Shown here piece after piece: positions 9,876-22,040 of a stretch of DNA of 64,000 bases; positions within the stretch are counted from its first letter, which is position 1, and every line of letters starts with the position of its first letter. The stretch comes from Paludibacteraceae bacterium (GTDB lineage: Bacteria; Bacteroidota; Bacteroidia; Bacteroidales; Paludibacteraceae): assembly GCA_024400125.1 (NCBI GenBank), contig JAKSNG010000002.1, forward strand, positions 1 to 64,000, given 5' to 3'. The position numbers and the translations under genes were made by a program. The notes below the pieces were generated by a model. The model had not been told where the DNA came from. It worked only from the letters and a program-made list of their open reading frames with translations, and searched no databases.

Positions 9876-10883
9876 ATGCCATTAGATAAAAATAAAACAC
9901 GACGATTTCAGGTGTTGGACCGCTGCTTTGCGGACCAACATAAGAAGTACTTTGTGGAAGACTTGCAAGAGGCTTGCCGCAAAGCACTATATGAAGCAGG
10001 TATGGAGTTCCCTGATGTGTCGCGACGTACTATATTTAATGACATTAACGAGATGACAACTAATGGCGAATGGAAAGCGGAACTTCTACCGCCAGAGCAG
10101 TCTCGTGAGGGCAAACAACGATTCTATCGCTATGCAGACCCCAATTTCTCGATATGGAAGTTAGACCTAAGTGAAGAACAGTTGCTGCAACTGAAGTCAG
10201 TACTGCTAATGCTTCGTCAGTTTGAGAATATGCCTCAATATGATATGATTGAGGATATTATAGAAGAATTAGAAAAGAAGTATAACTTCTCGTTGGGAGA
10301 AACAAATGGTGTAATGGCTTTTGAGGCAAATGACAATATTGAGGCCATGCAATATGTCGGTATTTTGTTCTCCGCAATTGTAAATAAGCAGGTGCTTAAG
10401 ATTGTGTATCAACCCTTTGGTAAAGAAGCACGCGCGTGCGTCGTACACCCGCATTACCTTAAACAATATAACAGACGTTGGTTCTTGTTTGGGCACAATC
10501 AAGATGGAGACGCAGATAGTATCACTAATTGGGCTTTAGATAGAATCGTCTCCGTAGAGCCGACATCAGACAAATACGTAGAATGTGCGATAGATTGGAA
10601 TGAATACTTTGAGGATTTAATGGGAGTAACACAAACTAATGATTCAGCAGAAGTCATTGAATTGGAGTTCAGTTCGAAGCGTCTGCCTTATGTTGAATCC
10701 AAGCCACTACATCCTTCTCAAAAAGTAAACAAGACAACCAAACACATCACAATAGAAGTTAAACCAACCAAAGAGTTATATCAACGATTGCTCTCCTTTG
10801 GTGCAGATGTGGAAGTGATTGCCCCGCAGTCGGTACGAGAAGTAATGAAAGAGGAAATCGATAAAATGAGGACTTTATATTAA
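9876..10883 (+). CDS. WYL-domain transcriptional regulator
   Basis: 335 aa. The N-terminal ~95 residues look like a winged helix (VSRRTIFNDINEM is the recognition-helix-like part). The middle contains a WYL domain with the PHYLKQYNRRWFLFG core (about residues 195-210), and the C-terminus (LLSFGADVEVIAPQSVREVM) matches the WCX extension. WYL regulators often sit first in phage-defence loci and are thought to sense a nucleic-acid ligand. It opens the island and has its own consensus promoter. It is the natural candidate for the factor that binds the inverted repeats repeated downstream; this is inference. The next gene starts 2 nt after its stop. Confidence 0.82.
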   Translation: MPLDKNKTRRFQVLDRCFADQHKKYFVEDLQEACRKALYEAGMEFPDVSRRTIFNDINEMTTNGEWKAELLPPEQSREGKQRFYRYADPNFSIWKLDLSEEQLLQLKSVLLMLRQFENMPQYDMIEDIIEELEKKYNFSLGETNGVMAFEANDNIEAMQYVGILFSAIVNKQVLKIVYQPFGKEARACVVHPHYLKQYNRRWFLFGHNQDGDADSITNWALDRIVSVEPTSDKYVECAIDWNEYFEDLMGVTQTNDSAEVIELEFSSKRLPYVESKPLHPSQKVNKTTKHITIEVKPTKELYQRLLSFGADVEVIAPQSVREVMKEEIDKMRTLY

Positions 10884-10885
10884 TT

Positions 10886-12439
10886 ATGGCAAAATTTAAA
10901 GTATTTATCAGTAGTGTTCAGGACGAGTTTCTAATAGAACGGCAGCGTTTGTATGATTTTATAAAAAACGATGAATTGTTTACGGAATACTTTGATCCGT
11001 TTATCTTTGAGAAAGCTACAGCACAGGATGCGTCCGCGAGTCAACTATATATAGAGCAAGCAAAACTATGTGATGTGTATATTGTTCTTGTGGGACAACA
11101 ATATGGCAATGCGTTGAAAGATATGCTGTCGCCTACTGAACAAGAATATATAGTTGCTGGAAAGGCGAATGCATATCGTGTAGGGTTTATTAAAGACTTA
11201 AATGGAGAAAAGCGTGATTCGCGTGAAGAAACTTTTTTCCGTAAAGTGCAATCAGAATTAACTTATCGAGAGTTTGCCAATGTAGAAGTGCTCATTTCTC
11301 ATGTTAAGAGTTCGCTGAAGGAATATTTAAAGTATAAGGGCATTATACAAACTAAGAGTTTTGATGAGCAAACACTCGATGAGGTTTCCTTGCAGGATAT
11401 TGATGATGAGAAAGTCTCTAAATTTGTCAAGATAGCCAACCAGTATCGTGGTTTCCCGTTATCAGAGGCCGCAAGTACGGAGCAAGTCTTGCAACATCTG
11501 CGTTTAATGCGCAAAGGCGTACCGTGCAACGGCGCATTATTGGCATTTGGCAAGGACCCACAATACTTTTTCCCAACTGCAGTAATCAAATGTGCATGGT
11601 TTTTAGGTACCGAAACGGTAAAACCTATGGAGGATTACCAGACATTTGATGGAGATGTGTTAGAGCAAATCAATCGATCCACCAGTTGGGTGATGTCTAA
11701 ACTTTCATTGCATGTAGGACTTCGCGATAAATCTGTTCAGAATGATACTGAATATGAGTTACCACGTTCCGTAATTTTTGAAACGATAGTGAATGCAGTG
11801 GCCCATCGTGATTATAATAGCAATGGGAGCGTGCAGATTTCTGTATTTCGTAATCGTATTGTTGTACGAAATCCTGGGACATTGCCAGTGGACCTCAAAT
11901 TAGAAGATCTTAGCAAAGAACATGGCTCGTTCCCGCATAATCCATTTTTGGCGGAGGTGTTATATCAAACTGGTTACATAGAAAAATATGGGACAGGAAC
12001 ATTGGAAAATATCCGTAAGATGCATGAAGCAAAATTATTGGCGCCAGATATTAATTTGACGGCTGAATTTATTACCACTATTTGGCGCAAAAATGTTGAC
12101 AACTTGAATGTAAATGTTGATAATAATCTTGCTAGTAATCTTGCTAGTAACCTTGCTAGTAACCTTGCTAGTAATCTTGCTAGTAAAGATGCTATCAATA
12201 AGTCAGTTTGTTCTTGTATTGCAAAACGTATGTCTCGTGAAGCAATAGAAGATTGTATTTTACGTTTATGCATTATAGAGCATTCAACGGAAGAACTTGC
12301 CAATGTCTTGCAGAAGAATGTTCGGTATTTAAGAAACGAGATAATCCCATCTATGGTTCAAGAGGGGAAACTTCTTCCTACCAAACAAAAAACAGACCCG
12401 AGTCAGTGTTATATAACTCATCCCAAGTGGAAAAAATGA
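10886..12439 (+). CDS. DUF4062 / GHKL-ATPase fusion with C-terminal winged-helix-like region
   Basis: 517 aa. Residues 1-155 match DUF4062: the KVFISSVQDEFLIERQ start and SPTEQEY at about 82-88. That domain is usually grouped with TIR-like folds. From about 195 to 400 the protein matches the HATPase_c_4 (RecG-C-like GHKL) type, with the ALLAFGKDP stretch, an N-box VIFETIVNAVAHRDY, VVRNPG and a GTGTLENIRKM loop. Residues about 414-433 are five perfect NLAS repeats encoded by a 12-nt tandem repeat. The C-terminal ~85 residues contain a helix-turn-helix-like EELANVLQKNVRYLRNEI. It follows the WYL regulator by 2 nt. Such proteins recur in defence islands, but a function here is not established. 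Confidence 0.72.
   Translation: MAKFKVFISSVQDEFLIERQRLYDFIKNDELFTEYFDPFIFEKATAQDASASQLYIEQAKLCDVYIVLVGQQYGNALKDMLSPTEQEYIVAGKANAYRVGFIKDLNGEKRDSREETFFRKVQSELTYREFANVEVLISHVKSSLKEYLKYKGIIQTKSFDEQTLDEVSLQDIDDEKVSKFVKIANQYRGFPLSEAASTEQVLQHLRLMRKGVPCNGALLAFGKDPQYFFPTAVIKCAWFLGTETVKPMEDYQTFDGDVLEQINRSTSWVMSKLSLHVGLRDKSVQNDTEYELPRSVIFETIVNAVAHRDYNSNGSVQISVFRNRIVVRNPGTLPVDLKLEDLSKEHGSFPHNPFLAEVLYQTGYIEKYGTGTLENIRKMHEAKLLAPDINLTAEFITTIWRKNVDNLNVNVDNNLASNLASNLASNLASNLASKDAINKSVCSCIAKRMSREAIEDCILRLCIIEHSTEELANVLQKNVRYLRNEIIPSMVQEGKLLPTKQKTDPSQCYITHPKWKK
12125..12184 (+). repeat. 12-nt tandem repeat x5 inside the DUF4062 gene (NLAS linker)
   Basis: Five copies of AAYCTTGCTAGT, differing only by a silent T/C, encode five consecutive Asn-Leu-Ala-Ser units. 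The unit is a multiple of 3, so changes in copy number alter linker length without shifting the frame. Confidence 0.95.
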
Positions 12440-12453
12440 ACACGCTCTACTCA

Positions 12454-12495
12454 CCTATGCAAAAAGGTTGCACAGAATAGCAGTACTTTTGCAGC
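12454..12495 (+). promoter_or_regulatory. Island promoter/operator repeat, copy 1 (before the helicase)
   Basis: A 42-nt element beginning CCTATGCA and ending in -7 TACTTTTG (12484-12491) plus CAGC. No TTTG lies at the proper -33 distance. Instead an inverted TGCA-N7-TGCA occupies that place, with half-site centres 11 bp apart. It differs from copy 2 at two positions. Confidence 0.75.
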
Positions 12496-12514
12496 GGAAA
12501 TAAAAAAAAAGGAT

Positions 12515-14629
12515 ATGACAACGGAAGAACTTCATAACACGAGCAACGCTAAATACCAAATTGACAAGGAGAATTCTGCTCAAATGTTAGCTCTTAACTT
12601 GGTATCTAAAACGAATGCCAGTTTCTTCCTTACAGGTAGGGCAGGGACAGGCAAGACAACCTTTCTTCACTATATTCAAGAGCACGTAAAGAAGAACTTT
12701 GTTATTGTTGCACCGACTGGCGTGGCTGCCATCGTTGTCGGTGGTATGACAATCCACTCATTCTTCGGGATGCCTTTTACTCCTATTACATCGGATACGA
12801 AATTTAACCTAAATGCCAACAAATGGTCCATTCTCAAACATGTACATACCATTATCGTGGATGAGATTTCCATGGTACGGTGTGACATAATAGATGGTAT
12901 TGACCGTGTTCTTCAAAAGGCTATGGAAAACAATCTCCCTTTTGGAGGAAAACAAATAATCTTCTCAGGCGATCTTTATCAATTAGAGCCTGTTTTGGAA
13001 CACGATGATTTGGAGTTGGTGGAGTTCTATCATAGAGAATATAATTGCGACGTGCCATATTTCTATCATGCACATGTATTCAAGCGCATCCAGTTACCTC
13101 GTATTGAATTCTCTAAAGTCTATCGTCAAAATGATCCCGAATTTCAAAAAATGCTTGAAAACATTCGGCACGGACGTTTAGAGGCTGCCGAAGTGAACAG
13201 AATTAATAAAATTGGTTTAGCCAACTATGCCGTCAAACAACACGAGCACTTGATTCTTACATCCACTAACAAAGCGGCTGATACTATCAATCAAGAGCGC
13301 ATAGACGCGATTGACCAGCCTGCATTTGAATATGAAGGAACAATTTCCGGAGAATTCAACAAAAGTTCATTTCCGTCCCCATCATTACTTACATTAAAGG
13401 TAGGAACGCGAGTGATGTTTACCCAAAATGATACTACAAAAAAATGGGTCAATGGTACCGTCGGCACAGTGACATCATTGACAGAAGACTCCATAATGGT
13501 GGAGTTAGACCATGGAGATATAGTACCCGTGCAACGTGCCAAATGGGAGAATATACGCTACACGTATCACAAAGATACCCGGAAGTTAGAACATGAGATT
13601 ATTGGGACTTATATTCAATTCCCGCTCAAATTGGCTTGGGCTATCACCATTCACAAGAGTCAAGGTATGACTTTTGATGATATGACGATTGATTTGAGTA
13701 ACGGAGTTTTTATGCCAGGGCAACTCTATGTAGCATTAAGCCGTGTTTGCTCCTTGCAGGGGTTAAACCTAACCTCCCCTATCCGATTGCACTACATCAT
13801 GTCTAAACCAAATATAGATAAATTCTTAGGAGAATATAATGATGTGGAAGTAATTGAAAAAGATATTGCTGATTATGCAGAATATTACAATGCTCTACAA
13901 ATTAACGATTACGATAAAGCTGTAGCAGAATGCGACCACTTAATGATGCACGAACTACAACAACGTAAGAACATTAGATTGCTACCTATTGACAGTCGAA
14001 AGAAGGCGGAACGGCAAAATGAGAAACATGAAGAAAATGCTTATTTCGCAGCAGAACGACTAGTTACGGTTATGCACACTATAGATTCTCTCTCGACCAG
14101 TGATACTCCCATCAAACTTTTTCCTGGAGATGGAGAACATGACCAATTATTAAAGGCTGTCATTGCATTAAAAAATAAAGATTATTGTACAATGTCAAAT
14201 TACGCAGACCGATTAATCTTTCGTGATACATTCTCCGCGAATTACCATTACCTGAAATGTCTTTCATTGTTTTTGATAAAAGACTATCCCGGGATGTGTA
14301 ATGCGTTAAATAGTTGGCGCGATAATGTAGAAACATTGGATGCGCGATATTACTATTTAAGCGCTTTGGCGGCATATAACACTAATCAACCCTTTGTTGG
14401 TAAAATGGCGACTGCCATTGAGAGTTGTCCTCGATATTATTCCTACATTCAGCAACTAAAACAAATGATGCAGGAGCGAGAACTTGTATTAGACTCCGAG
14501 GAAACAGAAGGAGAAGCCCTCGTAAATCAGTTTAATATTCCACAGACTGACATTATCACAGCATGTAAAAACGCAACAGCTAAACAATATCAATCATTTA
14601 TTAATTCAATCATGAATTTTGAAGAATAA
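12515..14629 (+). CDS. Pif1-like SF1B helicase with long C-terminal extension
   Basis: 704 aa. Helicase motifs in order: Walker A GRAGTGKTT (41-49), APTGVAA (66-72), Walker B VDEISMV (115-121), motif III SGDLYQLEPV (151-160), a TNKAADTINQ motif near 250, and HKSQGMTFDD (380-389) followed by QLYVALSRV. These define a Pif1/RecD2-like 5'-3' DNA helicase. Residues ~450-704 are an extension with TPR-like helical spacing that I do not recognise. The gene has its own copy of the island promoter repeat. The 86-nt gap to the next gene holds copy 2, so it is a separate, probably co-regulated unit. Pif1-like helicases are common in Bacteroidales accessory DNA; a defence role is inferred. Confidence 0.8.
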   Translation: MTTEELHNTSNAKYQIDKENSAQMLALNLVSKTNASFFLTGRAGTGKTTFLHYIQEHVKKNFVIVAPTGVAAIVVGGMTIHSFFGMPFTPITSDTKFNLNANKWSILKHVHTIIVDEISMVRCDIIDGIDRVLQKAMENNLPFGGKQIIFSGDLYQLEPVLEHDDLELVEFYHREYNCDVPYFYHAHVFKRIQLPRIEFSKVYRQNDPEFQKMLENIRHGRLEAAEVNRINKIGLANYAVKQHEHLILTSTNKAADTINQERIDAIDQPAFEYEGTISGEFNKSSFPSPSLLTLKVGTRVMFTQNDTTKKWVNGTVGTVTSLTEDSIMVELDHGDIVPVQRAKWENIRYTYHKDTRKLEHEIIGTYIQFPLKLAWAITIHKSQGMTFDDMTIDLSNGVFMPGQLYVALSRVCSLQGLNLTSPIRLHYIMSKPNIDKFLGEYNDVEVIEKDIADYAEYYNALQINDYDKAVAECDHLMMHELQQRKNIRLLPIDSRKKAERQNEKHEENAYFAAERLVTVMHTIDSLSTSDTPIKLFPGDGEHDQLLKAVIALKNKDYCTMSNYADRLIFRDTFSANYHYLKCLSLFLIKDYPGMCNALNSWRDNVETLDARYYYLSALAAYNTNQPFVGKMATAIESCPRYYSYIQQLKQMMQERELVLDSEETEGEALVNQFNIPQTDIITACKNATAKQYQSFINSIMNFEE

Positions 14630-14640
14630 AAAATATTATT

Positions 14641-14682
14641 CCTATGCAGAAAGATTGCACAGAATAGCAGTACTTTTGCAGC
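14641..14682 (+). promoter_or_regulatory. Island promoter/operator repeat, copy 2 (before the ATPase)
   Basis: 42 nt with -7 TACTTTTG at 14671-14678 and the TATGCA-N7-TGCACA inverted repeat at 14643-14661. One mismatch to copy 4 and two to copy 1. Confidence 0.75.
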
Positions 14683-14715
14683 AGAATTAAAAAATAGAAT
14701 ATTGACACAACGAAT

Positions 14716-16392
14716 ATGAAAGCAATTGGTTTTAAGAATTTCCGCAATTTCGAGGAATTGCCTTTGTTAGAATTTGGCAAAGGAGTTACATTTTTGGTTG
14801 GGCAAAATAATGCTGGCAAATCCACTCTAACGAAGGCATGTCGACTTATGGCCGAAAATATGCCATCGTGTATCAAATCCGAAGAAACAGCCACTATTGA
14901 TTTCGGAAAAATATGCCATTCTTTTAAACGTGCTATGCGTATTGGAGCGGATAATCAAAAAATGGAGTTCTCTGTGCAAACAGGTTACTTTACCATCACT
15001 TATACCATCGATGGTATGATTGAAGATAGACAGAACACGCGAGGAAATGTATCTCTAATTAAGGTATATGATCAAATAGATGATTGTACTTGGATTGGTG
15101 ATTTTGAGAAAAAACGCGCCACATTAGAATATAATGGTCGTTTATTAGCTAATATCATTCGTCAAAATCTTGATGAAAGTGACAATCGGGAAAATTTATT
15201 GGATTACACACATTTGTTCATTGATAAAACAGACATAAACATAGAAGAAATGCTTCTTAAACCAATTATTAGGGAAAAATGGGCATCAAAGAGAGAAGAA
15301 TACCAAAAATGGATAGATGAACTTTCTAAGGACAAAAAACTTCGCAGAATTGACTTAGTAGATGATTATGGTTGTAGTACCATGTCGCCATTTGCACACC
15401 ACACATTAGATTTTATATGGATAGATGAGTTTGGAAAAGAAGTGCATGACTTACAATGCAATAATCAATACATGTGCTATCTTCGCCAAAAATTAGCGCT
15501 CCATGTCAATATGAATGATGAAATAAAACATGATATGCTGGTATTATTTGACGTCCAACCCTTATTGTCTAAGATTCGTCGACATTATAAAATCGCGATT
15601 AGTAGCGAAGTAGACTTTTTACCTACTCATGAAACGCCACAACGCAGTGCATTCTATATTGGAGATGAAAATCTTGACTATTTCGAAACTATTGTTCGTG
15701 ATTTTTACTATGGCGAGGCACTCAGAGAACGTATATCTTGGGTATCAGACCGTATGAAAGATCTCGGTATAGGAACTAGTATAGTTTTACAACACCAATT
15801 GGGTGAAGTTGTTAATATATCAGTTAAGAAGGAAGATGGTACAGAACTTCCTCTTGCGGATTTAGGAAGAGGATCCATTCAGATAATAATGCTATTGTTG
15901 AGCGTTGCAACTAAAATATGTTCGATATACCTCAACCCCAATCTTCATCAGGTACTTTGTGAGAAACCTATGGACTATGCGTCTTTACTCCCAGGCCAAT
16001 TGGACGAACTATCTCGCCAACAAGCCCTTCGATATGAGCGTACAATCATTATCGAAGAACCAGAGCAAAATTTACATCCAGCCTTGCAAAGTAAGTTAGC
16101 AGATCTCTTCCTTTGTATATCAAAGACATTTAGATGTCATGTTATTGTGGAGACACACTCCGAATATATGATTCGACGAACGCAAGCCATGATTGCGACA
16201 GGAGAAATTTCGTATGATAACAATCCGTTCAAGGTGTATTATTTCCCACAAGGAGGTCTTCCGTATGATATGGGATATCAAGAGTCTGGAATGTTTGAGA
16301 ATAAGTTTGACGAAGGATTCTTCGATGAAGCGGAATCAATGAACTATGAAGTATTCCAGAGAAGTCGTCAACTAAAAAAGCAGCAACTGTGA
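14716..16392 (+). CDS. OLD/SMC-like AAA ATPase (DUF3696-like C-terminus)
   Basis: 558 aa. Walker A is GQNNAGKST (29-37), preceded by the typical FKNFRNFEEL start of OLD/RecF-like ATPases. An ABC-type signature-like stretch LADLGRGSIQ lies near residue 380. Walker B with its catalytic glutamates is IIIEEPEQNLHP (444-455), and the H-loop is VETHSEYMIRR (478-488). The C-terminal ~60 residues (KVYYFPQGG, then EGFFDEAE) resemble the DUF3696 tail. No TOPRIM nuclease is seen, so any effector activity must come from a partner. The stop overlaps the start of the next gene by 3 nt (GTGA), implying coupled translation and a stoichiometric complex, as in two-gene ATPase-effector defence systems. Confidence 0.8.
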   Translation: MKAIGFKNFRNFEELPLLEFGKGVTFLVGQNNAGKSTLTKACRLMAENMPSCIKSEETATIDFGKICHSFKRAMRIGADNQKMEFSVQTGYFTITYTIDGMIEDRQNTRGNVSLIKVYDQIDDCTWIGDFEKKRATLEYNGRLLANIIRQNLDESDNRENLLDYTHLFIDKTDINIEEMLLKPIIREKWASKREEYQKWIDELSKDKKLRRIDLVDDYGCSTMSPFAHHTLDFIWIDEFGKEVHDLQCNNQYMCYLRQKLALHVNMNDEIKHDMLVLFDVQPLLSKIRRHYKIAISSEVDFLPTHETPQRSAFYIGDENLDYFETIVRDFYYGEALRERISWVSDRMKDLGIGTSIVLQHQLGEVVNISVKKEDGTELPLADLGRGSIQIIMLLLSVATKICSIYLNPNLHQVLCEKPMDYASLLPGQLDELSRQQALRYERTIIIEEPEQNLHPALQSKLADLFLCISKTFRCHVIVETHSEYMIRRTQAMIATGEISYDNNPFKVYYFPQGGLPYDMGYQESGMFENKFDEGFFDEAESMNYEVFQRSRQLKKQQL

Positions 16393-17426
16393 TAATACTA
16401 TACACTACAGGTGAAATATTAGATCGCTTGCTAGTAGATGACATTGGCAATTGGGGACGGCTCCTTCATACAAAAGGCGCAGTCAGGGTTGTTGTTGATG
16501 AGATTGCGAATACACCGGAATCTATCCGATTTACAAAGATGGGAACATTTGATGAAGACACAAGTGTATTGGACTTTATATCTCAGCCTCAAAAAACGCT
16601 TGATGAATCAAATGCAGTTTTTATCTTTGATGTAGAAGAGACGGTTGCTTCTAAAATACGAAAGGAATATGGTGTATATTTTGTGGCATATAAAAATGCT
16701 ACGAAGAATATTCTAACAGAACAGGGGTGGGATTGGGATACAAGTGATGATTCCAAAACGCAGACGTGGCCATCATTCTTGGATGGACATGGGTGTCCAA
16801 TAAACTCTGCTATTATTTTAGATAGATATATGTTTTGTCCGGAAGGAGATGAGACCCTGGACGACTCGCTATTTAATATATGGCAAATAATGGAAGCTGT
16901 TCTTCCCTCTAATATCAAAGAGAAGGTCTTCAATATTGCATTGGTCTTTGATTATTCCAAGGGAACATATTGTAAAGATGATGGGGAATGTTATTCCTTT
17001 AAAGAACTTGCAGAAAGAGTGAATAAACTAAAAAGGAGAATTACTCGTCCTTATCATTTTACGATAGAATTAATATCTGTAGATCGAAAATGTGATGATT
17101 TATATAGTGAAACACATGATCGTCATATTATAACTAATTATTTTTTAGTGCATGCCGGCCATAAAATGAAAGCATATCGTGATCCGGATATACCTCTATG
17201 CAATCAAATTATTTATTTTAAACGTTTATTCTCCAGTGATCTAGCGGGGAAATCAAGTCTTCCCATAATTACACAGACCAGACTAAAGAGTGCTCTTTAT
17301 GATATAACGCACAATCCGCTATGGGATGATGAACTCGATTATGATGCAGAGTATCATTATGCAAAAGACGGGGCTGTGTACAACATGAGAAACGTAAATA
17401 TTGAGAATCGAATACTGACTTCCTGA
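16389..17426 (+). CDS. Unknown protein, coupled partner of the ATPase (putative effector)
   Basis: 345 aa from a GTG start overlapping the ATPase stop (GTGA). I do not recognise the family. Visible points are an acidic N-terminal half, a conserved-looking HDRHIITNYFLVHAGH stretch (residues 243-258) resembling the HDR(Y/F)I(I/L)T motif of PLD-like domains in conflict proteins, and no signal peptide or membrane segment. Frame-coupled position after an OLD/SMC-like ATPase lacking a nuclease domain suggests that it is the effector or specificity subunit. It ends just before island repeat copy 3. Alternative: an accessory subunit without catalysis. Confidence 0.6.
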   Translation: MIILYTTGEILDRLLVDDIGNWGRLLHTKGAVRVVVDEIANTPESIRFTKMGTFDEDTSVLDFISQPQKTLDESNAVFIFDVEETVASKIRKEYGVYFVAYKNATKNILTEQGWDWDTSDDSKTQTWPSFLDGHGCPINSAIILDRYMFCPEGDETLDDSLFNIWQIMEAVLPSNIKEKVFNIALVFDYSKGTYCKDDGECYSFKELAERVNKLKRRITRPYHFTIELISVDRKCDDLYSETHDRHIITNYFLVHAGHKMKAYRDPDIPLCNQIIYFKRLFSSDLAGKSSLPIITQTRLKSALYDITHNPLWDDELDYDAEYHYAKDGAVYNMRNVNIENRILTS

Positions 17427-17468
17427 CTAGTGCAGAAAGATTGCATAGGAATAACGAACTTTTGCAGT
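17427..17468 (+). promoter_or_regulatory. Island promoter/operator repeat, copy 3 (diverged, before the M48 protease)
   Basis: TGCAGAAAGATTGCATAGG (17431-17449) keeps the TGCA-N7-TGCA inverted repeat and lies at exactly the same distance from the -7-like AACTTTTG (17457-17464) as in copies 1, 2 and 4. The rest has diverged. The leader to the ATG at 17605 is about 130 nt. Confidence 0.6.
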
Positions 17469-17604
17469 GGAGGAAGATATATATTAGATTCACACAACGC
17501 AAACAAGCACAACAGCATAATCAACACTCATTATCAAATAATGTAAAATTATTGTTACACAATTATTCAAAGTCATTCATATCAATTCTAAACAATGTAA
17601 ATAT

Positions 17605-19146
17605 ATGAAACGATTTATTTTTTCTATTTTAATTATTCTACCTATCGCTATACATGCACAAATGTATAACATTAATTTATCTGCTAAAGTTGTAAAAAAG
17701 TACCAAGATCATAGCAAAGGGGAGATGTTGAATATTATCGGTCTACGACATGATATAACCCTTTCAAAAGATTTATATTATAGCGGCGTTAATAAATTTA
17801 ATGACTCATATAGTATGATTTTAGAAGGAGGGGCAGAAGTTCCATTAACGACTAAAATAGATAGAGCCCTTGACTTTCAAATAAAAACAATTGATGATTT
17901 ATGGAATGCTGCTATTTTGCAAGATGTAATTCCTATGTTAATAACTAAAGGAACGCAGGTTGACCTTCGTCAAGAGATAGAGAATGACGCACTACAATAT
18001 ATTGAGACTTTGAAAGAAAATGGTCTTGAATTCAATGACCCGTATTTGCTTAATTATTTATATACCATCATTTCCAAAATAGCACCATCCACCCTCATAG
18101 ATGGTCGTCCAGGTTCTGTAAATATAATAATCCAAGATAGTCCAGAATTAAATGCTGCAACTTATCCAAATGGCACGATTATTATAAATACAGGACTACT
18201 TGCTGCACTACACACAGAAGATGAATTGGTTGCAGTACTAGCTCATGAAATCGCGCACTTCGTTCTTGATCACAGTGTCCAAAACATTAATGCACAAATT
18301 GAGCAACAAAAAAGAGCGGCGGCAGCAGCGGCGTTCGCAACAGTTTTGGCAGGTATCGCAGAAGCCGGAATGGCATATTATTCAAATGGATACTATATGC
18401 CTGGAGCCGTTACAGCAGCAACAGCTATTGCCGCAACGGCTATTGCAAGCCAAGCAGTTGAAGATTTTGGTATGAACTATAGCAATCAACAAGAATTTGA
18501 AGCAGACAGATATGCTATTCAAGCTTTAGACTTTTTGGGATATAATCGAAACGCGCTTTCTACTGCTCTTAATCGCTTAAAAGAAATTATGCTCATAGAA
18601 CGTAGTAGAGCTATGTATTTCGCTTCATATTCTCACCCTGCCTTAGTTGAGCGAATTAACAAAGCAGGGACACCATCAATGGCATCAGATCCCGAGTTTG
18701 AAAAAATGATGTCTTTTGCTGTAACGAACACTGCATTTGTTAAGTACGACTGTCGCCGATTTAAGGAGGCGATGTGCTATGCAGAACAAAATATTAAAAA
18801 TCATGTAGCAACCGCCGATGATTATCTATTAAAAGCCAATTGCTTATTAGCATTAAATGGCACCAAAGAATCTGACCATGAGGTCTTGTCTTTAATAAAT
18901 AAAGCGAAGCAATTAGACCCTACAAATGTTAATATTTTTAAGACAGAAATCCTTACCGAACTTCGTTTAAAAAACATATCAAACGCAAAGATTATGTTAG
19001 ACGAGTATGTGAAATATCTCGCAGAAAAAGAAAATCACCTTAAAGATATTCAACATTCTGATGTTTGGTTAGGTTTATACAATTATGTGATTAGTGAGCG
19101 CAAATGGGCAAGCAAAATGTCTATTAAATTATCTGGTATGATTTAA
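17605..19146 (+). CDS. Exported M48-family metalloprotease
   Basis: 513 aa. Residues 1-19 are a signal peptide (MKRFIFSILIILPIAIHAQ) with no lipobox, so the protein is probably periplasmic. The catalytic zinc motif is HEIAH (214-218), with the third ligand in EFEAD (E297), the M48 arrangement. Between them lies an Ala-rich hydrophobic segment (238-285) that may touch a membrane. The C-terminal ~140 residues look like TPR helices. M48 proteases such as BepA/LoiP do envelope quality control. Here the gene lies in an otherwise cytoplasmic defence-like island behind copy 3 of the shared promoter repeat. That placement suggests a conflict role, but an ordinary envelope protease carried along is possible. 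Confidence 0.8.
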   Translation: MKRFIFSILIILPIAIHAQMYNINLSAKVVKKYQDHSKGEMLNIIGLRHDITLSKDLYYSGVNKFNDSYSMILEGGAEVPLTTKIDRALDFQIKTIDDLWNAAILQDVIPMLITKGTQVDLRQEIENDALQYIETLKENGLEFNDPYLLNYLYTIISKIAPSTLIDGRPGSVNIIIQDSPELNAATYPNGTIIINTGLLAALHTEDELVAVLAHEIAHFVLDHSVQNINAQIEQQKRAAAAAAFATVLAGIAEAGMAYYSNGYYMPGAVTAATAIAATAIASQAVEDFGMNYSNQQEFEADRYAIQALDFLGYNRNALSTALNRLKEIMLIERSRAMYFASYSHPALVERINKAGTPSMASDPEFEKMMSFAVTNTAFVKYDCRRFKEAMCYAEQNIKNHVATADDYLLKANCLLALNGTKESDHEVLSLINKAKQLDPTNVNIFKTEILTELRLKNISNAKIMLDEYVKYLAEKENHLKDIQHSDVWLGLYNYVISERKWASKMSIKLSGMI

Positions 19147-19237
19147 TCAATGGCCTTTGCATTTTTACATTATACTCTTTCAACATCCAAAAGTGGTATA
19201 AGGCAGAGTGGTAAGAAAGGACGAGTTCTTTGTAAAT

Positions 19238-19330
19238 ATGATTAGAAACTTATACATAATAGGAAATGGATTTGATTTGCATCATGGAATTAATAGTTCC
19301 TCTGATGAGTATCAACATTTTTCCATATAA
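19238..19330 (+). pseudogene. AbiH-like abortive infection gene remnant (N-terminal 30 codons)
   Basis: The frame reads MIRNLYIIGNGFDLHHGI and continues for 12 more codons to a TAA. (N/R)xLYIIGNGFDLHHG is the hallmark start of AbiH-family phage-abortive-infection proteins, which normally run to roughly 250-350 aa. The rest is absent: the stop is followed within 16 nt by island promoter repeat copy 4. The gene was therefore cut off, probably by recombination at the repeat. A short functional peptide is unlikely. Confidence 0.65.
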
Positions 19331-19345
19331 TAACTTTTTAATATT

Positions 19346-19387
19346 CCTATGCAGAAAGATTGCACAGAATGGCAGTACTTTTGCAGC
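19346..19387 (+). promoter_or_regulatory. Island promoter/operator repeat, copy 4 (orphan)
   Basis: 42 nt, one mismatch to copy 2; -7 TACTTTTG at 19376-19383. No gene follows: a terminator lies 56 nt beyond the -7. Confidence 0.7.
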
Positions 19388-19438
19388 ACCTTTTTGAAGG
19401 ATATACACAATAAGGATTATTCCGTTGTGAAAACATTC

Positions 19439-19470
19439 AGGGTGGGACTTACGTCTCGCCCTTTCTTTTT
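19439..19470 (+). terminator. Intrinsic terminator downstream of orphan promoter copy 4
   Basis: AGGGTGGGAC pairs with GTCTCGCCCT (19439-19448 / 19453-19462, two wobbles) over a four-base loop and is followed by TTCTTTTT. Together with copy 4 it would produce a transcript of roughly 75-80 nt. Confidence 0.65.
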
Positions 19471-19645
19471 CATAGAATATATCCGCTCGCTATCCTCTCG
19501 GAAAGTGGCTACATTCATCGGACGTAGTCTCGCAGCACCAACGGAGCACCTGCGGACGTGGACATCCCCGCCAATCCGCCACCAAAAACTACTTTTTTTT
19601 AGGGAAAGACAATGTATTTAATAGATTGTCCCTAAGAAAAGAAAG

Positions 19646-19772
19646 AAAAAGGTAAAAAGTAAAACATAAGCGATTTTGTTTTTCCATCTCTCTTCTTATA
19701 CTCTACACGCGTACATCTGCGCGATGCTCCATTACTAATTTAATTTCGATACTTTTTACTTTTTACCTTTTT
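19646..19772. repeat. Perfect 19-nt inverted repeat
   Basis: AAAAAGGTAAAAAGTAAAA (19646-19664) and its exact reverse complement (19754-19772) flank about 90 nt. It is related to the AAAGTNR-type repeats found elsewhere in the window. Confidence 0.85.
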
Positions 19773-19803
19773 ATGAACTGTCGGCAGACAAAGTGGATGA
19801 GTT

Positions 19804-19977
19804 AAGCGTTACAGCGTTACAGCGTTACAGATTAAAAATTGAGGGTACACACTTTGCCGCAAATCTCTATATACTATATATAACTATCTAATAATCAATA
19901 ATATATATAATAATAAAGAGGGTAAAAAAAGAAATACCCCCTTCGTTTTTTGGGACTGTAACGCTGTAACGTAACGC
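19804..19977. repeat. GCGTTACA direct/inverted repeats around an AT-rich core
   Basis: Three tandem AGCGTTAC(AG) units at 19804-19830 face CTGTAACGCTGTAAC plus GTAACGCT at 19955-19977, separated by about 125 nt of very AT-rich sequence. The arrangement recalls replication or attachment sites, but I cannot assign it. Confidence 0.6.
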
Positions 19978-20352
19978 TTTGTGATTCGTTAAAGTGTTTG
20001 TAATCAAGAGTTTAACTGACAATATTCTCGTGACAAAAACGAAGAATCGTTACGATTTGATGGGTATATCTGCCCTTCAAGAGTCCAAAACGCTACCTCG
20101 AATGCTGAATATGGCGGCAGTAAATGCACCAAGGCATATAAAACCTGTGATTTTAAATTCGCACATTTTCTGCGTTGGGAGCGTTAATGCAGCATGTTGG
20201 ATTTCGTTGTCCTGACAATATGCATATAGTTATTTGTTCGAGAAATTTTATTGAAACATAGATAATTGGTAATCATTACCAAACATTTTATGAAAAATGT
20301 GGTACTCTTGTACTGTGGTCACAAAAATGGCAGAAAATAGGGGGACAAGCCG

Positions 20353-20530
20353 CTCGGTAACCTCTCGGTATCCTCTCGGAAAAGATCGCCTAAAAAAGGA
20401 CGAAACAAATTAGGGTCGGCGAACAGAAATAGAACAGAAATAGTATAGACTGGTCGCGGTGTGGTCGCGGTTGTAGTTGAGCATGGGTAGTGTATGACTG
20501 GCATAGAAAGTTGCAAGTTGCAAGTTGAAA
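20353..20530. repeat. Cluster of short tandem repeats (11-nt and 7-nt units)
   Basis: CTCGGTAACCT/CTCGGTATCCT (20353-20374), GAACAGAAATA x2 (20421-20442) and GGTCGCGGTGT/GGTCGCGGTTG (20452-20473) are three unrelated 11-nt duplications. They are followed by AAGTTGC x2 plus AAGTTGA (20509-20529), a 7-nt repeat. Confidence 0.85.
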
Positions 20531-20567
20531 GTGATATCCACAAGCCCATGTGATTTGTTGTTAAAAG

Positions 20568-22040
20568 TTACTTGCCTCGATGTAGCCGTTGCGGAAGAAT
20601 AGAACGGATGTCCAAACGGAATGCGATACATGCAAAGACCAGAATCAGCACGGTGCCAAATGCCATACGCGTAAGTGTATAAGTTGTGGTATTGATGGAC
20701 AGTAGTCCGCTGTGCTGAAGTGCCATTGGTACGAGATAAAATATGCCCAATAACACAACAATAACGCCCGTATATAGACCAATTCGACGTAAGTCGTATG
20801 GGATGTCTAAGTGCTTGCGACCAACTAAATAGCTGATGAGCATAATCACGAAATAGCACACTAAACTGCTGCCGCACGATGCCCAATAACCGATGCGAGG
20901 AACGCCCACAATCTGTAGAACGACGGTGATGGCTAAACCAATCAAAGAAAAGATAGCACCGAAACGTGTCTCGTCCGTTAACTTATACCAGAAAGAGAGA
21001 TTGAAATACACTCCCTGGAAAATGTATGTCCAAAGGACGATAGGCACAATACGCAAACCCTCCCAATAGGTGGAGCCGATAATGTACTTGAAGATGTCCA
21101 AATAAACGACAACCACGAGCAGGATAAGATAAGAGAAGATGATGTAATACTTCATGGCATCAGCGTATGCCTCGACGGATTGACGGTCTTTGTGTTTGGC
21201 AAAAACAAATGGTTCGTACGCATAGCGAAAAGCCTGCGTGAACATCATCATGACCATCGCTACCTTGAAACAAGCACCATAAATACCGAGTTGAGCCTCT
21301 GCATCTTCGCCCGAATAAAGATAGGGGAAAATAATACGGTCAAGCGTCTGGTTCATGATGCCAGCAATACCGAGTACCAGCAATGGCAACGAATAACGCA
21401 GCAGTTCCTTGAGCAGTCCCCATGAGTATTGACCACCACGCGGCAATGTGAGCAGCAGCAAAATGACAGTCTGGATGGTAGTGGCAAGGATATTGCTGAG
21501 GAAGACATAGGTGACGTCTTGCCATTGCAGAATAATCAAGAAGAGTAGGTTGAAGGCAATGTTAAGTACTACAAACAGCAGCTTGAGTGCCGCAAAAAGA
21601 ATGGCACGTTTCTGGTAACGGAGATAGGCAAAAGGCACGCTGGATAGGGCGTCCATTGCCACCGTCATAGCCATCATGGCAATGAAATTAGCATGGTGTT
21701 CGTAGCCCAAACCATTAGCAATCGGTTGCTGAAAAACAAGGCAGACAACGGCAAAAAGGACGCTGGTTGCAAAGACGGTCCACATACTGGTTTTATAGAC
21801 AGAACGAGCATCGTATCCGTCCTTGTTAGCAAAACGGAAGAAGCCTGTCTCCATGCCGTAGGTCAAGATGACGAGTAACAATGCTGTCCATGCGTACAAG
21901 TTAGTCACGATACCATAGTCGGCGGTGTTTTGAAGTACGTAGGTATATAGTGGAACGAGCAGATAATTAAGGAACTTTCCTACTATACTGCTGATGCCAT
22001 AAATGGCTGTGTCTTTTGCTAATCCAGATAAATTACTCAT
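20568..22040 (-). CDS. Polysaccharide flippase (MOP/Wzx family)
   Basis: 490 aa with about 12-14 hydrophobic segments throughout. The N-terminus (GLAKDTAIYGISSIVGKFLNYLLVPLYT) is typical of Bacteroidota Wzx-like oligosaccharide flippases that move lipid-linked glycans across the inner membrane. There are no neighbouring glycosyltransferases, so the substrate cannot be inferred. It is the last gene of the ssb-ilvE operon and its start overlaps the rsmI stop by 8 nt. Confidence 0.85.
   Translation of the reverse strand: MSNLSGLAKDTAIYGISSIVGKFLNYLLVPLYTYVLQNTADYGIVTNLYAWTALLLVILTYGMETGFFRFANKDGYDARSVYKTSMWTVFATSVLFAVVCLVFQQPIANGLGYEHHANFIAMMAMTVAMDALSSVPFAYLRYQKRAILFAALKLLFVVLNIAFNLLFLIILQWQDVTYVFLSNILATTIQTVILLLLTLPRGGQYSWGLLKELLRYSLPLLVLGIAGIMNQTLDRIIFPYLYSGEDAEAQLGIYGACFKVAMVMMMFTQAFRYAYEPFVFAKHKDRQSVEAYADAMKYYIIFSYLILLVVVVYLDIFKYIIGSTYWEGLRIVPIVLWTYIFQGVYFNLSFWYKLTDETRFGAIFSLIGLAITVVLQIVGVPRIGYWASCGSSLVCYFVIMLISYLVGRKHLDIPYDLRRIGLYTGVIVVLLGIFYLVPMALQHSGLLSINTTTYTLTRMAFGTVLILVFACIAFRLDIRSILPQRLHRGK

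Follow-up and report, generated by a model that had tools for sequence, protein, structure and literature searches.

WYL proteins coded beside defence systems have been described in BrxR and CapW, which, according to the available text of the two reports, bind inverted repeats at their promoters (PMC9122601, PMC9122588). In the same texts the CapW sites are given as palindromes of 19-24 bp (PMC9122588), and two BrxR boxes are reported for the pEFER island of BrxR (PMC9122601). How defence islands acquire new systems and control them is an open question, and a site serving both control and joining would answer both parts of it. Here we analysed a window of 64,000 nucleotides, i.e., the whole stretch of DNA presented above, together with related loci from congeneric genomes. 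As read from the DNA, these loci display an AbiH remnant, operator repeats linked to a WYL gene, an enrichment of exchange breaks at the operators, a duplicated tracrRNA gene and a swap of its promoter. The explanation that we consider probable is that a defence regulon, led by a WYL protein and delimited by operators, took up a tracrRNA gene as one of its cassettes, next to a cassette of M48 peptidase and AbiH that is in decay.

The site would represent the downstream end of a modular defence island headed by a WYL transcription factor, with the following features:

9876-10883, forward strand: WYL regulator gene, island leader, 335 aa (Pfam WYL and WCX over cut-off; fold; congeneric homologues)
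10886-12439, forward strand: DUF4062 and HATPase_c_4 gene, between the WYL gene and operator 1 (Pfam)
12455-12495, forward strand: operator-promoter copy 1, dyad 12455-12475 and then the -7 box (repeat and matrix search)
12515-14629, forward strand: PIF1/RecD-like helicase cassette, 704 aa (Pfam PIF1)
14642-14682, forward strand: operator-promoter copy 2 (repeat and matrix search)
14716-17426, forward strand: cassette of an AAA_15/OLD-like ATPase and its partner (14716-16392; 16389-17426; Pfam, PADLOC; partner without known family)
17428-17467, forward strand: operator-promoter copy 3, degenerate (matrix score 22.3)
17605-19146, forward strand: M48 metallopeptidase gene, 513 aa (Pfam M48)
19238-19330, forward strand: AbiH remnant, first 30 codons (Pfam PF14253, columns 1-24 of 260)
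19347-19387, forward strand: operator-promoter copy 4, putative hybrid promoter of the tracrRNA copy (repeat and matrix search)
19374-19588, forward strand: stretch common with the CRISPR-Cas9 locus (L082:6525-6739), from the -7 box on
19384-19470, forward strand: predicted second tracrRNA gene (identity with the Cas9-locus tracrRNA gene; duplex with the array repeat; fold)

Homologues of the PIF1-like helicase at 57% identity were found in the island loci L122 and L124, and the families of the ATPase and of its partner both return in other islands (clusters c1 and c6). The usual order in the islands is the WYL gene, sometimes one more gene, and then operator, cassette, operator, cassette. A 12-nt direct repeat with six overlapping 36-nt copies was observed at 12105-12200, inside the DUF4062/HATPase gene. 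Rfam returned nothing in the window at the gathering threshold, and at E up to 1 it gave two unrelated weak matches in 12300-20600.

The operator is a 21-bp dyad with the consensus TTGTGCA-N7-TGCACAA, which occupies the position of the -33 box and is followed by a -7 box. The dyad of copies 2 and 4 reads CTATGCA-N7-TGCACAG; copies 1, 2 and 4 carry the -7 box TACTTTTG, and the -7 box of copy 3 lacks TA. A 40-nt query retrieved 12456-12495, 14643-14682 and 19348-19387 within 3 mismatches and gave no hit in 100 shuffles, while the dyad pattern without mismatch occurred in the source genome only at copies 1, 2 and 4. Matrix scoring returned 22.3 for copy 3 and 62.6, 59.5 and 52.8 for the others. 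Among the 178 congeneric genomes, the source genome included, the operator pattern was present in 40 and a reversed control pattern in none. In the rest of the order, the pattern occurred in 3 of 252 genomes (254 were searched, two of which belonged to the same genus). A stricter form of the motif was found in 11 contigs from metagenome assemblies of Bacteroidales and Paludibacteraceae, one of them Candidatus Colicola caccequi, and the exact pattern was absent from the viral contigs searched. At least one site was present in 46 of the 49 island loci, the window's included, and 91 sites scored above 10, counts that are partly circular because a locus entered the set by virtue of its WYL homologue or operator and the matrix itself derives from this set; on this matrix the reversed island sequences scored at most -12.7.

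A WYL homologue (E up to 1e-30) was found in 37 of the 178 congeneric genomes. The operator occurred in 31 of these 37 genomes, compared with 9 of the 141 genomes without a homologue (Fisher p 1e-20), and homologue and operator shared one contig in 30 of the 31, both overlaps being tallied by hand. In nine genomes the operator pattern was present but no WYL match, and in six a WYL match but no operator pattern; in four of these six the homologue reached 30-34% identity, and the other two (G064, G162) hold one weaker matrix site each. At the level of loci, a member of the WYL cluster was present in 35 of the 46 site-bearing ones, one member being a wrong ORF (L223). The N7 core types of the operators tracked the WYL tree, with 4 changes over 33 labelled islands compared with a mean of 13.6 and a minimum of 10 in 500 shuffles, L223 (wrong ORF, very long branch) and L225 having been left out beforehand and island L118, in which two core types are mixed, having been entered by majority. 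Genome G050 holds two islands, each with its own core type (L197 A, L198 B). As the operator core types follow the WYL tree, the WYL protein is the likely binder of the dyad.

The WYL protein contains a helical N-terminus of the winged-helix kind, a WYL and a WCX domain, i.e., the domain composition of the BrxR/CapW type. Its structural model was of moderate quality (pLDDT 77.5, pTM 0.38) and the predicted fold matched DriD, PafBC, BrxR and CapW, with DriD and PafBC as the best full-length matches. Foldseek returned an E value of 1.1e-8 to BrxR 7qfz_G with a TM of 0.30-0.34, and the VIA comparison with BrxR 7t8l_A gave a Z of 12.5 and an rmsd of 11.2 over 169 aligned residues. A search with the WYL protein against the PDB sequences showed no match, the kin of the protein being visible by fold search only. 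Since the operators are without a -33 box, activation, as by DriD and PafBC, might be somewhat more likely than repression, as by BrxR and CapW.

A sequence-only reading of this DNA had suggested that the repeats may act as exchange points for defence cassettes, and the comparison of congeneric islands supports this. Of 208 distinct identity-block ends, 38 lay at most 50 nt from an operator, with 5.4 expected from uniform draws and a maximum of 15 in 2000, and 49 of the 127 intergenic block ends fell in operator gaps (31.0 expected, 47 in the highest of 5000 shuffles), figures to be read with the block ends not being independent and the loci having been picked for WYL/operator features. The RmuC genes of L116 and L117 are 93.8% identical at the DNA level over 1462 nt, starting 76 nt after the operator; the WYL proteins of the two loci share 49% identity and their other genes at most 27%. 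Similarly, a block of 90.6% identity between L126 and L194 terminates at an operator. As identity breaks at the operators more often than expected by chance, the view that the repeats behave as cassette boundaries and exchange points is supported.

The cassettes of the other islands include several defence-related families. Pfam analysis of 18 distinct proteins identified HsdM, HsdS, HsdR, a reverse transcriptase, RmuC, a HAD hydrolase with a DprA-like partner, two methylase-HATPase proteins and a DUF1016/YhcG nuclease, while PADLOC reported a retron-like reverse transcriptase and the candidates PDC-M16A, PDC-S27 and PDC-S02; 6 of 10 other-island cassette proteins had no PADLOC match. The genes of the reverse transcriptase cluster c4 (L191, L195, L197, L201, L202, L210, L211, L212; one member scanned) start about 280-350 nt after the operator, a distance that would suit a retron RNA leader. 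Also observed was a cassette, about 206 nt long, that lies between two operators and codes for an acidic peptide of about 43 residues (L202:5140-5346, L197:2440-2648, L201:13726-13517).

The element following copy 4 was then characterised. A DNA search with 19140-19660 returned, besides a second copy at G000:C18, an element of about 95 nt that is dispersed in congeners. The native copy (C18) adjoins the Cas9, Cas1 and Cas2 genes and 12 repeats; the window copy lies on C12, so that only the native one is placed within the CRISPR locus. Comparison of the array spacers with the retrieved DNA gave short, chance-like matches only. The window copy consists of an anti-repeat (19393-19411), complementary to the CRISPR repeat, a nexus hairpin (19406-19429) and a Rho-independent terminator hairpin (19439-19462). 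The anti-repeat forms 19 contiguous pairs with the array repeat at -30.4 kcal/mol, compared with a mean of -14.1 and a lowest value of -25.5 in 300 shuffles, and in 20 other genomes (tallied by hand) the same element lies no more than 6 kb from cas9. On the basis of anti-repeat, nexus, terminator and closeness to cas9, the element reads as a tracrRNA gene.

The window and native copies are identical over 148 nt from AGTACTTTTGCAGC on, and the next base leftward falls outside the identity. The identical stretch extends to 19521, about 50 nt beyond the terminator, and is followed by 67 nt (19522-19588) with 6 differences, after which homology ceases. As the identity begins at the -7 box, the join is placed there, the island operator having taken the place of the native TTTG -33 half. 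TTTG or CTTG was found at the -33 place in 26 of 29 tracrRNA copies (19 TTTG, 7 CTTG), these 29 having been picked for a visible -7 box and copies without one left out; of the other three, one was masked, one had a wrongly picked box and one carried neither motif. At the same place, TTTG or CTTG occurred in none of the 87 operators. By the pattern positions in the 178 congeneric genomes, the window copy is the only one with an operator no more than 100 nt upstream of the nexus, and the window is also the only one of the 49 island loci with a nexus. A search of the genome contig collection, from which the source genome was possibly left out, returned no operator-tracrRNA fusion with the exact pattern.

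Across the genus, the tracrRNA nexus was present in 46 of 178 genomes, cas9 over the cut-off in 34 and both in 22 (an overlap tallied by hand), the tracrRNA counts resting on a pattern search and the DNA search having scored three candidates per genome. The remaining 24 of the 46 nexus genomes had no Cas9 over the cut-off; among these, seven reach a completeness of at least 90%, but drafts can miss genes. Solitary tracrRNA-like genes in genomes without Cas9 over the cut-off were collected as L084-L102 (genomes G056, G009, G157, G032, G156, G067, G095, G139, G150, G098, G014, G072, G025, G074 and G100), and several of them begin at the anti-repeat without a recognisable promoter. In 20 tracrRNA contexts no family was found beside most copies. 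The commonest context family, a protein of about 100-170 aa, occurred at 7 of the 20 loci, within 2.5 kb in 3, and gave no Pfam match in the four members scanned (the three near ones and that of L103). Its members lie at L086:3916-4425, L087:6754-7191, L089:5884-6276, L092:9312-9722, L093:4001-4492, L096:11776-12090 and L103:1324-1824. At L103 (G108:C8:250000-266000) one cas9 is flanked by two tracrRNA-like copies, with a third partial copy in addition. In viral contigs, the nexus was found in 4 contigs, with different flanks. A dispersed stretch lies downstream of both tracrRNA copies of the source genome and at a third place in it (19491-19590 and G000:C38:224-323).

These data have to be weighed against a serious possibility, to which we assign somewhat less than even chances, that the second tracrRNA gene is neutral debris, i.e., a recent duplication fixed by chance and serving at most as a terminator that closes the island. 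The fusion occurs in one genome only, the common stretch includes tail DNA with likeness at C38, and congeners without a Cas9 match also have scattered tracrRNA-like genes, all of which would fit such debris. However, the 97 nt from the -7 box to the terminator show 0 differences against 6 in the 67 nt of 19522-19588, a weak contrast (6 differences in 215 nt overall, P 0.026 under an even spread). Recency or gene conversion explains the 148-nt identity as well as selection does. Against debris, the -7 box and the start region are intact at the join, so that a complete operator-promoter faces the RNA.

The AbiH remnant lies immediately upstream of copy 4. Its ORF runs from the ATG at 19238 to the stop codon at 19328-19330 and codes for 30 aa; an alternative GTG start at 19208 would give 40 aa. 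The match to PF14253 scored 31.5 bits (cut-off 30.9, E 2.6e-7) and covers the conserved N-terminal region with GNGFD, i.e., columns 1-24 of the 260 that define the full-length protein; the PADLOC AbiH profile agrees weakly (E 1.7e-4). The stub is the sole AbiH match in the 1.62-Mb genome, with 28.3 bits in the genome-wide search, and when 19001-19700 was searched in six frames with a profile built on 12 AbiH proteins of congeners, no second AbiH stretch rose above noise. Among the 101 congeneric genomes searched, 16 match AbiH at E up to 0.01 (the source genome included), 13 pass the cut-off and 12 of these cover nearly the whole profile. Since AbiH is near-complete in most congeneric matches, the long form is the rule and the window copy a stub, in agreement with the earlier claim that only the N-terminus survives; a short AbiH ORF conserved in relatives, the finding that would have told against that claim, was not seen among them.

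The same reading had placed the end of the stub 16 nt before copy 4, which proved correct, and had taken this end as the mark of a recombination between two repeat copies that removed most of AbiH or a following module and left the stub by copy 4. We regard this deletion as unlikely. The stub is real, exchange at operators occurs in congeners, and AbiH similarity stops at 19321, 25 nt 5' of the copy 4 dyad, all of which speaks for it. However, the 16 nt between the stop codon and the dyad (17 on the scale of dyad start minus gene end) compare with a median gene end-to-operator distance of 18.5 nt and quartiles of 7.5-43.25 for the 84 of 87 operators that were measurable; the gap is ordinary cassette-end spacing and therefore no evidence for a break at the repeat. 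The AbiH loss may have been internal, with the stop of the stub sitting at the normal place of a cassette end. In addition, copy 4 precedes a captured tracrRNA gene and not a deletion scar. The expected full AbiH gene between repeat copies of relatives did not appear in the ORFs or the six frames of the 48 other island loci, nor was AbiH present within 1.5 kb of seven distant M48 homologues. At E up to 1e-20 the M48 gene itself found no counterpart in any of the other 177 congeneric genomes, so that there is no congeneric M48 gene against which to date the event at AbiH; no M48 relative was confirmed in viral contigs, and one plasmid record matched at 30%. Taken together, the AbiH stub and the degenerate copy 3 look like a decaying M48-AbiH cassette.

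It is very improbable that the copy steers Cas9 to a host promoter as a regulatory RNA of the L-tracrRNA or scaRNA type: it does lie outside the CRISPR locus, and scaRNA is likewise described, in the part of the report available, as encoded outside the array (PMC6199352). However, from the -7 box onward its sequence is that of the native tracrRNA gene, and no extra guide part is visible. An assembly artefact, in which the assembler joined island and tracrRNA gene via the common -7 box, is hardly credible, even though the draft genome comprises 41 contigs and that box is the place of the join. Each copy has contig sequence on both sides, the two differ beyond 19521, and the stated contamination is 0; a shared word of that length, moreover, seldom leads an assembler astray.

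Under the preferred reading, a WYL-led regulon that captured a tracrRNA gene, each cassette would stand behind the same operator-promoter, in which a WYL dimer most likely binds the dyad and a Bacteroidota -7 box follows. Recombination, with breaks preferentially at the common operator-promoters, would bring cassettes in, remove them and exchange them. The third cassette, with the M48 peptidase and AbiH, would be in decay, its operator degenerate and its AbiH gene reduced to 30 codons; the fourth would be an RNA gene, the second tracrRNA of the cell's own type II CRISPR-Cas9, joined via the common -7 box. As the start region is common to both copies, the RNA made from copy 4 is expected to equal the native tracrRNA, though under WYL/island control. 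Switching on the island would then supply extra tracrRNA and increase crRNA processing and Cas9 loading. WYL binding, the direction of control, expression and the effect on Cas9 are the steps of this scheme that we infer. A further-reaching and tentative proposal is that the promoter-operator acts as a joining element that immediately places any captured gene under island control, and that capture of the tracrRNA gene makes CRISPR-Cas9 inducible by the infection or DNA-damage signal of innate defence. If true, a tracrRNA gene as a cassette would provide a direct regulatory link from innate defence genes to CRISPR-Cas9. Among the literature matches listed, which comprised titles and the beginnings of abstracts with subscription journals mostly outside, neither a tracrRNA gene behind a defence-island operator nor operator-delimited WYL cassettes were found.

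Integron gene cassettes form an array of exchangeable cassettes with a common boundary element. The island resembles them in this organisation but differs in that its boundary would be a promoter-operator and that no integrase was present among the island proteins scanned. As to Cas9-related RNAs, the island copy is comparable to L-tracrRNA and scaRNA, as far as these are described in the available text (PMC8730458, PMC6199352), in being a further RNA beside the standard set; unlike them, it is apparently the tracrRNA itself, without an added guide part. It shares the RNA sequence, anti-repeat, nexus and terminator with the type II tracrRNA, and differs from the usual arrangement given in the accessible part of that report (PMC8730458) as a second copy outside the CRISPR locus and with another promoter. 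Among the regulators, the activators DriD and PafBC give the best full-length fold match to the WYL protein, and the missing -33 element would fit activators; PafBC, for its part, serves the DNA damage response (PMC11804915). Finally, the WYL protein resembles BrxR and CapW in its position beside defence genes and in its predicted fold, whereas the island operator, unlike theirs, is repeated before several cassettes, replaces the -33 box and coincides with cassette breakpoints.
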